Positions 3,885 to 58,678 of a DNA stretch of 64,000 nucleotides are shown in pieces (the first letter of the stretch is position 1; every line of letters starts with the position of its first letter). The position numbers and the translations under genes are program-made. The DNA comes from an uncultured Brachyspira sp. (lineage in GTDB: Bacteria; Spirochaetota; Brachyspiria; Brachyspirales; Brachyspiraceae). A model generated the notes under the pieces. That model was not told the DNA's origin and did not search any database. It was given only the letters and a program-made list of their open reading frames with translations. The stretch lies in assembly GCF_944388875.1 (NCBI RefSeq), contig NZ_CALXKQ010000001.1:248001-312000 (forward strand), in the 5' to 3' direction.

Positions 3885-4057
3885 CAAATATTAAAGAATT
3901 GGAGGAAAGCAGTATTTATAGATGAAATGCATAGTATGACTTTTTTTAAAAATTTTCATAATAAAATACCTTTGAATAACTTTACTCTATGTTACAGATA
4001 TTAAATTAATATATTAAAAAAGTCAATTATTATTTTTATTATTTAATATAAAATTTA

Positions 4058-24045: not shown

Positions 24046-25649
24046 CTATTCTTTATATGAATAATAAAACTTATGAACTGAAAGAGGATCATATAAAACA
24101 TCTTTCAATTTAGAAGAAACCAATAAAGGTTCTGAATAAAAATACATAGGTATTATTGCAAAACTATTTATTAATATATCTTCAGCCTTATGCATAGCTT
24201 CCATTCTTATTTTTTGATCCGATGTGCCTAAAGCAGTTTTTATATATTCATCATACTGAGCATTGCTGAAAGATGAAAAATTATAAGGAGAGTAGCTTGC
24301 AAATAATTCTAAGAAGTTTATAGGATCATTAAAGTCGGCAAACCATCCGCCTCTTGCTATTGTGAAATCTCTTGAAAATCTTCTGCTTAAAAATACGGAC
24401 AATTCCTCCTGAACTATTTTTGTATCTATACCTAAATTCTCCTTCCACATCTGCTGAACGGCCTCAAAAATTGCAACATTTATACCGGGATCAGAATTAA
24501 ATTCAAATACAGGAAAACCCTCTCCATTAGGATATCCAGCCTCAGCCATTAATTTTTTAGCCTCTTCTATATTATTTTGATAATTCTCACTGCTTACATC
24601 AAAATAATCTCCGCCATTCTCTCTGAAATCTCCAGATGCATCTTTAACACCATAATGAACAAAGCACTGGCTGCCCTCTCTCCCGCTTTAGTTATCTGTT
24701 TAACTATATACTCTCTGTCAATAGCCAAAGCTAAAGCCTTGCGTATTCTAACATCCTTCAATACCTCATTAGTAGTACTCAAGCAGTAAAAGAAAGATGC
24801 TAATGAAGGTTTTATCTGAATCAAACCCTCCTCCTGTAAAGCGGGTATATCCTGTGTAGGAAGTATTTTAGAAAAATCTATAGAATCCTCTTTTATGCCA
24901 GCAACAGATGCTGTTTCATTTTGCATTATAATAAAGTTTAGTTTTTCCGCTACTATAGAATCGCTGTTCCAATAATTAGTATTTTTTACCATAACTATTT
25001 TGTCATCTGCACTTATTTCAATAGTGGTATAATGTCCGTTTCCTATATATGTTTTTGCATCCAAGCTCCAGCTATCGCCATACTGCTCTACTATATCTTT
25101 TCTTACTGGAAAGAATACTGAAAATGATGTCAAATCTAAGAAATATGCTGTAGGACGTTCTAATAATACCTCAAATGTATAATCATCTATAGCTTTTACT
25201 CCTAAATCATCAGTACTCAATTCCCCAGCAATAATCTTATCAGCATTTTTTATCGGAGACATTAAATAGTTATAATCACTTACAGTTATAGGATCAACAA
25301 CTCTCTTCCATGTATAAACAAAATCATTAGCGGTAACTATTTTACCGTCATTCCATTTAGCATTAGTTCTTAAATGAAACACATATCTTGTACCGTTATC
25401 AAACTCCTCCCAGCTTTCAGCAACACCTCCTACTATATTTCCAGACTTATCCGTTCTAGTTAATCCTTCAAAAGCATGAGCAATATAATACGAGCCTATT
25501 AATGTAGAACTTAAACTAGGATCTATAGCTTTAGTCTGAGGACCTAAATTTATATTTATAGTTTTTTTATCATCAGAAGGCGATGAAGATGAGCATGAAA
25601 CTGATAACATTAGTATGAATATCAGAATTGCATTTAGTTTATTATTCAT
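24046..25649 (-). pseudogene. oppA: oligopeptide ABC transporter binding lipoprotein, single-base frameshift
   Basis: An OppA-type (family 5) peptide-binding lipoprotein in two frames. The first part (25649 to about 24662) has a lipoprotein signal (lipobox SVSC) and family blocks such as HAFEGLTRTDKSGNIVGGVA, WNDGKIVTANDFVYTWKRVV and ALALAIDREYIVKQI. The second part, to 24046, continues in another frame (NIEEAKKLMAEAGYPNGEGF, then the C-terminal lobe). Adding one A to the AAA at 24661-24663 (plus strand) joins them into one protein of about 534 residues. Everything else is intact, so the lesion is recent or a sequencing error. No opp permease genes are nearby; it is an orphan binding protein. 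Confidence 0.85.
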
Positions 25650-25749
25650 TTATAAAACTCCTTAAATTTATTGAAACTATTATATATTTCATATATTAAC
25701 TGTTAAGCGGGAACTTTTTTAAATTTCATACGTCTAATATAGTATAAAG

Positions 25750-25871
25750 AGAGTTACTTTAGACATTTGGAGGTTTATGAAAGATTTAAGATGCTTTAAA
25801 TATTTAGGAGGTTTATATTTAATGCATCTTAAAATAATAAGGAGGTTTTATTATATGTTTAAAGTAACTTT
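25750..25871 (+). ncRNA. candidate structured RNA with three GGAGG loops
   Basis: An imperfect inverted repeat spans the 250-base gap between oppA and moxR. The outer stem pairs 25750-25764 with 25857-25871 (15 bp including G-U). The inner stem pairs 25785-25803 with 25815-25833 (18 of 19) and has GGAGG (25807-25811) in its 11-base apical loop. A third stem pairs 25834-25840 with 25848-25854 (7 bp) and has GGAGG (25841-25845) in its loop. A further GGAGG (25769-25773) is in the internal loop. TATAAA at 25743-25748 could be a -10 box placing the RNA start at the outer stem. GGA motifs in hairpin loops are the hallmark of CsrA-binding RNAs. It could equally act as leader of the short ORF inside it. 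Confidence 0.45.
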
Positions 25872-25899
25872 ACTTATATATTGTTCCTATAACAAATAG
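25777..25899 (+). CDS. possible nested small ORF (40, 25 or 14 residues)
   Basis: A 40-codon ORF begins MKDLRCFKYLGGLYL. Two further in-frame ATG codons lie at 25822 and 25855. AGGAGGT stands 9 bases before the second and AAGGAGGT 8 bases before the third, ideal spacings; the first has GGAGGT only 2 bases away. The shortest product would be MFKVTLLIYCSYNK. The stop ends 3 bases before the convergent moxR stop. The ORF may be chance within the structured element; I see no homology. Confidence 0.3.
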   Translation: MKDLRCFKYLGGLYLMHLKIIRRFYYMFKVTLLIYCSYNK

Positions 25900-25901
25900 A
25901 T

Positions 25902-26897
25902 TTAAGGTACATTGATATTAGCAAGTAAATTTTCTATAATCATATCGCTATTAACATTTTCAGCCTGTGCTTCATAGCTTATGCTTATTCTATGCCTTAG
26001 TATCTCATAAGCAACGGCTCTGATATCTTCAGGCATAACAAATCCCCTTCCCTGCATCATGGCATTTGCTTTAGCTGCTTTAGTTAAATATATTCCAGCT
26101 CTTGGAGAAGCACCGTACTCTATATATTCAGACTGAAGTTTATATTCCTTAGGATTTCTAGTGGCATCTATAATATTTACTATATAATCTATAAGTCTTT
26201 CTTCTATATGTATTTGATTTGCTAATTTTCTTAATTTTTCTATAGTTTCTATAGTAGTTATAGATTTTAATTCTTCAGGTTTTGAAGATGACATATTTTT
26301 TATAATAGTTTTCTCCTCGCTTTTTGTAGGATACTGAACTATTACCTTTAACATAAATCTATCAACCTGTGCTTCTGGAAGAGGGTATGTTCCTTCCTGC
26401 TCTATTGGGTTTTGCGTTGCCAATACTAAAAATACATCAGGCAGCTGATAAGTAGTATCCCCTATTGTAACCTGATGCTCTCCCATAGCCTCAAGCAATG
26501 CTGACTGAACTTTTGCAGGAGAACGGTTTATCTCATCAGCCAATATTATATTAGAAAATATAGGTCCCTGCTTAGGTACGAATGCTGAATTTTTTATATC
26601 ATAAATTTCTGTTCCTACTATATCTGCAGGAAGTAAATCTGGTGTAAACTGTATCCTCTTGTATGTGGCGTCTATTGTACTTGCTAAAGATTTTACAGTT
26701 AATGTTTTTGCTAATCCTGGTACTCCTTCTAATAATACATGCCCATCGCATATAATACCTAAAAGAAGTTTATCTATCATATTTTCCTGACCGATTATAA
26801 CTTTTTTTATCTCATTTTTTATTGCCTGAACAACATCAAGTGCCATTTTTGAGGCTTCTGAAATTACTTGTAAATCTTTTGAATTGCTGTCTACCAT
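25902..26897 (-). CDS. MoxR family AAA+ ATPase
   Basis: A 331-residue MoxR ATPase, a chaperone-like AAA+ protein that usually activates vWA-containing partners. Walker A is GHVLLEGVPGLAKTLTVKSL at about 52-71, Walker B is NIILADEINRSPAKVQSALL, sensor 1 is VFLVLATQNPIEQEGTYPLP, and the lid holds GASPRAGIYLTKAAKANAMM. The length is full. It follows the BatD-like gene by 20 bases, so the two form an operon. The usual DUF58 and vWA (BatA/BatB) genes are not next to it; the vWA protein at 19771 is the only vWA gene seen here. Confidence 0.93.
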   Translation of the reverse strand: MVDSNSKDLQVISEASKMALDVVQAIKNEIKKVIIGQENMIDKLLLGIICDGHVLLEGVPGLAKTLTVKSLASTIDATYKRIQFTPDLLPADIVGTEIYDIKNSAFVPKQGPIFSNIILADEINRSPAKVQSALLEAMGEHQVTIGDTTYQLPDVFLVLATQNPIEQEGTYPLPEAQVDRFMLKVIVQYPTKSEEKTIIKNMSSSKPEELKSITTIETIEKLRKLANQIHIEERLIDYIVNIIDATRNPKEYKLQSEYIEYGASPRAGIYLTKAAKANAMMQGRGFVMPEDIRAVAYEILRHRISISYEAQAENVNSDMIIENLLANINVP

Positions 26898-45723: not shown

Positions 45724-46067
45724 TCGGCATGCGGAGCGGGTAAACGCGGTATTTAAGTAACTAATACTGAGGAAAGTCCGTACCTCTAAAGGGCATCATG
45801 CAAGCTAACGGCTTGAAGGCGAAAGCCTATGGAAAGTGCAACAGAAAATATACCGCCAATTTGGTAAGGGTGAAAAGGCATGGTAAGAGCATACCGCATT
45901 TGTGGCGACATGAATGGCAGTGTAAACCCCATGAGAGGCAAGAGCAAACAGAAACGGATTGCCCTTTTCCTAAGTTTCAGGTAGCTCGCTAGAATATTAT
46001 AGTGATATAATATCAAGATAAATGTTTACCTTAAATGACAGAATACGGCTTATAGCTCCGCTTACTT
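45724..46067 (+). ncRNA. rnpB: RNase P RNA (class A)
   Basis: Catalytic RNA of ribonuclease P, which cuts the 5' leader from tRNA precursors. Conserved regions are visible: GAGGAAAGTCCG at 45769-45780 (CR I), ACAGAAAATATACCGCC at about 45841, GGTAAGGGTGAAAAGG at about 45863, AGAGCATACCGC at about 45888, and ACAGAATACGGCTTATAG at about 46038-46055 (CR V). The P1 helix pairs GCGGAGC near 45731 with GCTCCGC at about 46055-46062. The 5' end is uncertain by several bases. TTGACA at 45693 and TATAAT at 45711 lie upstream, with an unusually short 12-base spacer. A T-run follows P1. Confidence 0.95.
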
Positions 46068-46071
46068 TTTA

Positions 46072-57757: not shown

Positions 57758-58678
57758 TTATTTTATAACTATTGTTCCTGTTTTTCCTGCTATTCCATCT
57801 GCAGCTTTTTCCAAAGAGGTAATTAAAGCCTTACGTCCTGATTTAGATTCTGCAAACATCATAGCTGCTTTTACTTTAGGAAGCATAGAACCTGGAGCAA
57901 AATGTCCTTCATCTATATATTTTTTAGATTCATCTATAGTCATTTTTGAAAGCCATTCTTCATTAGACTTGCCAAAATTAATAGCAACTTTTTCTACTGC
58001 TGTCAATATTATCAAATAATCAGCATCTAGTATTTCTGCTATCTTAGCTGAAGCAAAATCTTTATCTATAACAGCTGGAATACCAATTAATTTATCGCCA
58101 TCAACATAAACAGGTATTCCGCCTCCGCCTACAGTAATAACAACTGTACCAGCATCCATTAATGTTTTTACTGTATCTTTTTCTACAACATCAACTGGTA
58201 AAGGTGAAGCTACAACTCTTCTATAGCCTCTGCCTGCATCTTCTTTAAATACATCGCCTGTTTTTTTTGCTTGTTCTTCTGCTTCTTCTTTTGAATAAAA
58301 TGAGCCGATTGGCTTGGTAGGATTTTGGAAAGCTTTGTCATTTTTATCAACAACAACTTGGGTAATAACTGTAGCTACATTCTTATTGACTTTCCTACGC
58401 CTCAATTCTTCGCTTATAGCATTCTGAAGATGATAACCAATATAACCTTGACTCATAGCACCGCATTCAGGAAAAGGCATATTTGGTATATTAGAAGCTG
58501 TATCAAAAGCTAAATTAATCATACCAACTTGAGGTCCGTTGCCATGTGCAATAACAACGGTATGTCCTTCCTGTATCAAATCTACTATAGGCTTTGCTGT
58601 ATTTATTACAGCTTCAAGCTGTTCTTTTGGATTATTACCTAAAGCGTTACCGCCTAATGCTACTACTATTTTTCCCAT
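57758..58678 (-). CDS. arcC: carbamate kinase
   Basis: A 306-residue kinase that makes ATP from carbamoyl phosphate and ADP in the last step of the ADI pathway. Blocks: KIVVALGGNALGNNPKEQ, VVIAHGNGPQVGMINLAFD, RRVVASPLPVDVVEKDTVKT, VVITVGGGGIPVYVDGDKLI, VIDKDFASAKIAEILDADYL and FAPGSMLPKVKAAMMFAES. Complete and of normal length. It follows arcB by 70 bases, a gap that holds a 12-base perfect hairpin without T-run. Confidence 0.97.
   Translation of the reverse strand: MGKIVVALGGNALGNNPKEQLEAVINTAKPIVDLIQEGHTVVIAHGNGPQVGMINLAFDTASNIPNMPFPECGAMSQGYIGYHLQNAISEELRRRKVNKNVATVITQVVVDKNDKAFQNPTKPIGSFYSKEEAEEQAKKTGDVFKEDAGRGYRRVVASPLPVDVVEKDTVKTLMDAGTVVITVGGGGIPVYVDGDKLIGIPAVIDKDFASAKIAEILDADYLIILTAVEKVAINFGKSNEEWLSKMTIDESKKYIDEGHFAPGSMLPKVKAAMMFAESKSGRKALITSLEKAADGIAGKTGTIVIK

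Follow-up and report, generated by a model that had tools for sequence, protein, structure and literature searches.

What kind of RNA, if any, is encoded in the gap between moxR and an oppA-like gene of an uncultured Brachyspira sp. is a question raised by two nested inverted repeats on the plus strand (25743-25878; positions are those of the window, the whole stretch of 64,000 nucleotides that was analysed). A preliminary description had read this element as a candidate sponge for the regulator CsrA, with three GGAGG motifs displayed in hairpin loops. Our comparison with related genomes favours another origin, in that the element is probably the structured 5' leader, under the control of an ECF sigma factor, of a Spy/ZraP-type gene (PF13801) for envelope/metal stress, the coding part of which has been lost at this locus.

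The element very probably represents a plus-strand RNA. Folding of this strand gave a minimum free energy of -43.2 kcal/mol against -21.2 kcal/mol for shuffled sequences (z -7.9, with 0 of 200 shuffles as good), and the nested hairpins of the preliminary description were recovered; the minus strand also has a stable fold (z -9.1). GGAGG starts at 25769, 25807 and 25841, and none of 5000 dinucleotide-shuffled versions of the element had three or more copies. The display of all three copies in loops was confirmed only in part. In the predicted ensemble the middle copy, lying in the apical loop of the inner stem as originally described, is alone reliably single-stranded (unpaired probability 0.89-1.0), while the first and third have most of the motif unpaired just ~0.2-0.25 of the time on account of weak G-U/A-U pairing, and the separate 7-bp hairpin described as presenting a GGAGG loop is an alternative fold. 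No other GGAGG in the window is enclosed by as long a stem as the copy at 25807 (18 pairs). The runner-up, on the minus strand near 58126 (17 pairs), was discarded because it is part of the coding sequence of a carbamate-kinase-like ORF, and a further hairpin at 3901 (13 pairs) because it is intergenic and has a different fold. A dispersed repeat or mobile palindrome was ruled out, the element being single-copy in its own genome and the best off-locus match of a covariance model across the genus having an E value of 0.026. A known Rfam RNA was likewise rejected, as no family reached its gathering score and the sole weak match was csRNA (E 1.2), on the minus strand. No intrinsic terminator was called for the window RNA, and a discrete RNA end is thus not predicted.

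Features of the moxR gap and its surroundings, in window positions (G002, B. alvinipulli ATCC 51933; G020, an uncultured MAG)
Feature	Position	Strand	Details
ECF-sigma promoter	25710-25737	+	GGAAC 25710-25714, 16-base spacer, CGTCTAA 25731-25737
Outer stem, 5' arm	25743-25766	+	22 of 24 positions paired with the 3' arm; kept in G002/G020 across 15-16 pairs
First motif, GGAGGTTTATG	25769-25779	+	Counterpart in G002/G020 is AGAGGTTTATG
Inner hairpin	25785-25833	+	Arms 25785-25803 and 25815-25833, 18 of 19 pairs; 11-nt loop UUAGGAGGUUU with second GGAGG 25807-25811
Third motif, AAGGAGG...ATG	25841-25857	+	GGAGG 25841-25845, ATG 25855-25857
Outer stem, 3' arm	25855-25878	+	From inverted-repeat and fold analysis
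Site of the G002/G020 spy/ZraP-like ORF and terminator	25879-25901	+	Both missing in the window
moxR	25902-26897	-	

A TATAAA just before the outer stem is unlikely to be the promoter, since a much better candidate, GGAAC-N16-CGTCTAA, stands just upstream of it and has the form of ECF promoters of the sigma-E type. GGAAC and GTC are the promoter elements of E. coli sigma-E (PMC10012870). With one mismatch allowed, the pattern GAACTTTTT-N11-CGTCTAATA had 130 matches in 26 Brachyspira genomes as against 6 for the reversed pattern used as control, and the window copy is a perfect match. The genes found behind the motif copies that were examined mostly encode secreted Spy/ZraP-like or Gly/Tyr-rich small proteins or are of the efflux type, with some others, and one copy in the own genome heads an operon in which an ECF sigma factor (PF04542, PF08281) and a zf-HC2 anti-sigma factor are encoded along with a Spy-like protein. 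The GGAAC-N16-CGTC promoter that it shares with these genes and with the sigma operon makes the element a predicted member of an ECF-sigma regulon, which, as judged from the gene families present, probably responds to envelope/metal stress. Transcription would be expected to start near 25744-25746. At L209/L184 of this genome (C2, ~132.9-134.7 kb) the motif stands ahead of an operon that is likely to be the master of the regulon, its products being an ECF sigma factor, a zf-HC2 anti-sigma factor and two proteins of the Spy-like kind. The E. coli sigma-E and C. metallidurans CnrH regulons are comparable in their GGAAC...GTC promoters, their pairing of an ECF sigma factor with an anti-sigma factor and their Spy/ZraP-like and efflux targets. 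In contrast, the Brachyspira regulon is spirochaetal and has an anti-sigma factor of the zf-HC2 type, and its promoter at the window locus precedes a hairpin leader without a gene.

The same gap in relatives suggested what may once have followed the leader. In B. alvinipulli ATCC 51933 (G002) and in the uncultured MAG (G020), the promoter is followed by a homologous hairpin leader, a ribosome-binding site (RBS), a Spy/ZraP-like ORF (127 aa in B. alvinipulli, PF13801 E 3.7e-7) and a terminator-like repeat, so that both genomes have the hairpins after the promoter and ahead of the ORF. In three others (G009, G021 and G024) the promoter and an orthologous spy-like ORF occupy this spot too and are separated by a short leader devoid of hairpins. 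No spy-like ORF follows the element in the window genome, for which reason we term it an orphan leader, and no close homologue of that ORF was found elsewhere in the genome, the best being 54% identical and located at another regulon locus. In G009 and G024 the spy-like gene has an RBS and start that look similar to the third GGAGG motif of the window; this third motif has no counterpart at the same place in the G002/G020 leader. The oppA-like gene (24046-25649, minus strand) is frame-broken into ORFs of 351 and 167 aa, where G002 and G020 have a single ORF of ~490-510 aa. Downstream of moxR, six genomes (G004, G006, G009, G021, G023 and G024) have the 3' end of that gene partially duplicated in tandem, along with repeated terminators.

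A further group also lacks the ORF. In G010 and Brachyspira sp. G79 (G016) the moxR gap contains two promoters, the upstream one of G010 being two mismatches off, together with GGAGG hairpins and no spy-like ORF. B. innocens (G008) has the same element beside the same catalase-like gene as these two, again with no spy-like ORF, and its moxR is on another contig. In a moxR tree the window genome groups with G002/G020 and with G015, in which the element was not found within 1.2 kb of moxR, and B. innocens, G010 and G79 form the sister clade (support 98 and 92). The tree thus implies two separate losses of the spy-like ORF. The simplest history would be an ancestral sigma-ECF-dependent spy-like gene, the leader of which gained hairpins before the ORF was lost twice while promoter and hairpins stayed in place. 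Other conceivable routes are unequal exchange and, for the B. innocens clade, hairpins that arose independently.

Compensatory changes in stems that keep GGAGG in the loop, which the preliminary description had named as support for its candidate, were found on comparison of the window copy with G002 and G020. The alignment comprised these three closest copies, two of them nearly identical, with shorter stretches aligned and the structure drawn from one. Five pairs of the inner stem differ on both sides, A-U, U-A, A-U, U-A and G-C in the relatives being G-C, C-G, U-A, A-U and U-A in the window, and one pair is formed in the relatives only. The outer stem is preserved despite four pairs that changed on one side only, through G-U, and GGAGG is kept in the 11-nt loop of G002/G020, shifted by one base. 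Sliding the pairing partners, as a control, abolished the covariation signal. In all, 40 of 41 pairs form in the window against 32 in the gene-keeping relatives, on a structure drawn from the window copy. Relatives thus retain both the stems and GGAGG. In B. innocens, G010 and G79 a different stem of 15-16 pairs encloses TTTTGGAGGTTTATG; in the predicted folds of the latter two the first two GGAGG are paired and not in loops. This exact 15-mer has four copies in the 26 genomes, all at the moxR-gap locus, and this confinement led us to reject it as a general RBS. A covariance model built from the three copies detected the hairpins of G79 (E 6e-5) and G010 (E 1.5e-3) and gave no convincing match at other loci of the genus. 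A near-match in G010 at C1:1976431, given by BLAST and the model, was rejected for want of a GGAGG loop.

Counted against the leader reading are the pairing of GGAGG in G010 and G79, the missing terminator, the lack of the element in G015 and a covariation signal drawn from three sequences. It could also be envisaged that the element is a plain relic, a promoter and leader left behind by recent deletion of the spy-like gene and now devoid of a role. We regard this as a real possibility, albeit one we lean against: gene and terminator are both missing, any leftover transcript would be without a terminator, and the adjacent oppA is frame-broken too, while on the other side the promoter is a perfect match, the stems are paired at least as well as in the relatives that keep the gene (in the structure taken from the window copy), and the B. 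innocens, G010 and G79 clade also retains promoters and GGAGG hairpins without the gene. Alternatively, the element might belong to the minus strand, where a hairpin at the 3' end of the moxR message would stand in for the terminator that the deletion removed. The good fold of that strand, the start of the element 24 bases past the moxR stop and the absence here of the terminator that separates ORF and moxR in relatives would suit such a role; we consider it very unlikely, however, as there is no terminator-like U-tract and the conservation of promoter and GGAGG motifs favours the plus strand.

A small protein or leader peptide, with the GGAGG-ATG pairs as real translation starts, is the least credible of these readings. 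RGAGGTTTATG recurs in six genomes, and a 40-codon frame in the window (25777-25899) has three in-frame ATGs, each after a GGAGG. The frames are, however, unrelated between genomes (MKDLRCF..., MIIVKLS*, MVIFKLS*, MLNF*, MIN*) and without a family match, and the GGAGG-ATG spacing of three nucleotides is short.

As regards the CsrA hypothesis itself, the gene for CsrA is present in 26 of 26 genomes, namely the own genome (C3:212606-212761) and all 25 relatives. In the own genome csrA adjoins fliW. FliW is a protein antagonist of CsrA, reported in bacteria that lack CsrB-like RNAs. High-affinity CsrA sites consist of ANGGA in a hexaloop, with a SELEX consensus of RUACARGGAUGU, and most SELEX ligands had no more than four contiguous pairs (PMC7652899); CsrA/RsmE sites have an A two bases before GGA, as in ANGGA or CANGGANG (PMC7652899, PMC4894983). 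Among the motifs of the element, UUUGGAGG, UUAGGAGG and AAGGAGG, ANGGA is found in the third alone, which has the appearance of an ordinary RBS. At the Shine-Dalgarno (SD) site of each of the three flagellin leaders in the own genome (L307, L308 and L309) stands CAUGGAGG, in agreement with CANGGANG; the CATGGAGG of these leaders is a good motif of the CsrA type. The element has no ANGGA/CANGGANG repeats in small hairpin loops of the kind that mark CsrB/RsmZ-type sponges, and it matched no CsrA-sponge family in Rfam. While it resembles CsrB/RsmZ in presenting several GGA in hairpins of a noncoding RNA, it has three motifs against some 18 CAGGA(U/A/C)G repeats in CsrB (PMC7652899), the motif is not of the CsrA kind, and it derives from an mRNA leader. 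Thus, while CsrA is present, a sponge role as proposed earlier is not supported: loops without ANGGA, just three GGAGG, long stems and the position of csrA next to fliW speak against it, and the homologous element of the nearest relatives is a stress-gene leader.

A modified form of the proposal, possible and not favoured, would be a leader repressed by CsrA in the relatives which, here, has become a small orphan RNA induced by the ECF sigma factor and titrating CsrA. In G002/G020 a conserved loop GGA upstream of the SD GGA reproduces the layout of CsrA-repressed leaders such as glgC (PMC7652899), and an mRNA leader that acts as a CsrA sponge is known from a FliW organism in flaA of C. jejuni (PMC4894983). 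This form is nevertheless unlikely, as the loops lack an A at -2 (UUUGGA, UUAGGA, UUUUGGA) in contrast to CAUGGAGG of the three flagellin leaders, the loop, of 11 nt, tops a long stem, G002/G020 have AGAGG in place of the first GGA, the sites are few and csrA lies beside fliW. The flaA and Salmonella fimAICDHF leaders, which titrate CsrA (PMC4894983), share with the element GGA stem-loops, an SD GGA downstream (in the relatives) and a host with both CsrA and FliW; its loops are, however, larger than hexaloops and devoid of ANGGA, its stems are longer, its link to CsrA is putative, and its gene is a stress chaperone that is missing in the window genome. Given the flaA precedent, binding of CsrA here would not be surprising. 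A putative CsrA-acting ncRNA is mentioned for Leptospira biflexa (PMC8668096).

Returning to the stress-gene leader, stress in the relatives would free the ECF sigma factor, leading to transcription of the spy-like gene with its hairpin leader; the outer stem would close the 5' end and so probably make the mRNA more stable, and the loading of ribosomes, or of another SD-binding factor, on the stress mRNA may be set by the SD-like GGAGG(UUUAUG) motifs. The ompA leader is a 5' stem stabiliser of its mRNA. The element is similar in that a stem is predicted to close the 5' end, and differs in being nested, in having SD-like motifs in its loops and in that its stabilising effect is putative. The corresponding promoter of the window genome would give rise to the leader only: with the coding part missing, the locus can at most yield an orphan leader RNA starting near 25745, which would run into moxR antisense unless cut or ended at the stem. 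As the promoter and the GGAGG hairpins survived two ORF losses, the RNA may now act by itself, perhaps as a free RNA. That a stress-induced regulatory RNA was born twice from the same leader by coding loss, with GGAGG loops that under the ECF sigma factor catch a partner recognising SD sites, 30S ribosomes or CsrA, is a speculative extension that we think improbable. Were the RNA made, it would exemplify in nature how an mRNA leader can survive the loss of its gene, here in two lineages, with a bearing on the origin of regulatory RNAs. Our literature search on Brachyspira with CsrA, ECF sigma factors or small RNAs found nothing specific and no paper on this regulon, of which promoter, sigma factor, anti-sigma factor and targets are outlined here for these animal-gut spirochaetes. 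The same window also carries the RNase P RNA of bacterial class A (45728-46068, plus strand).
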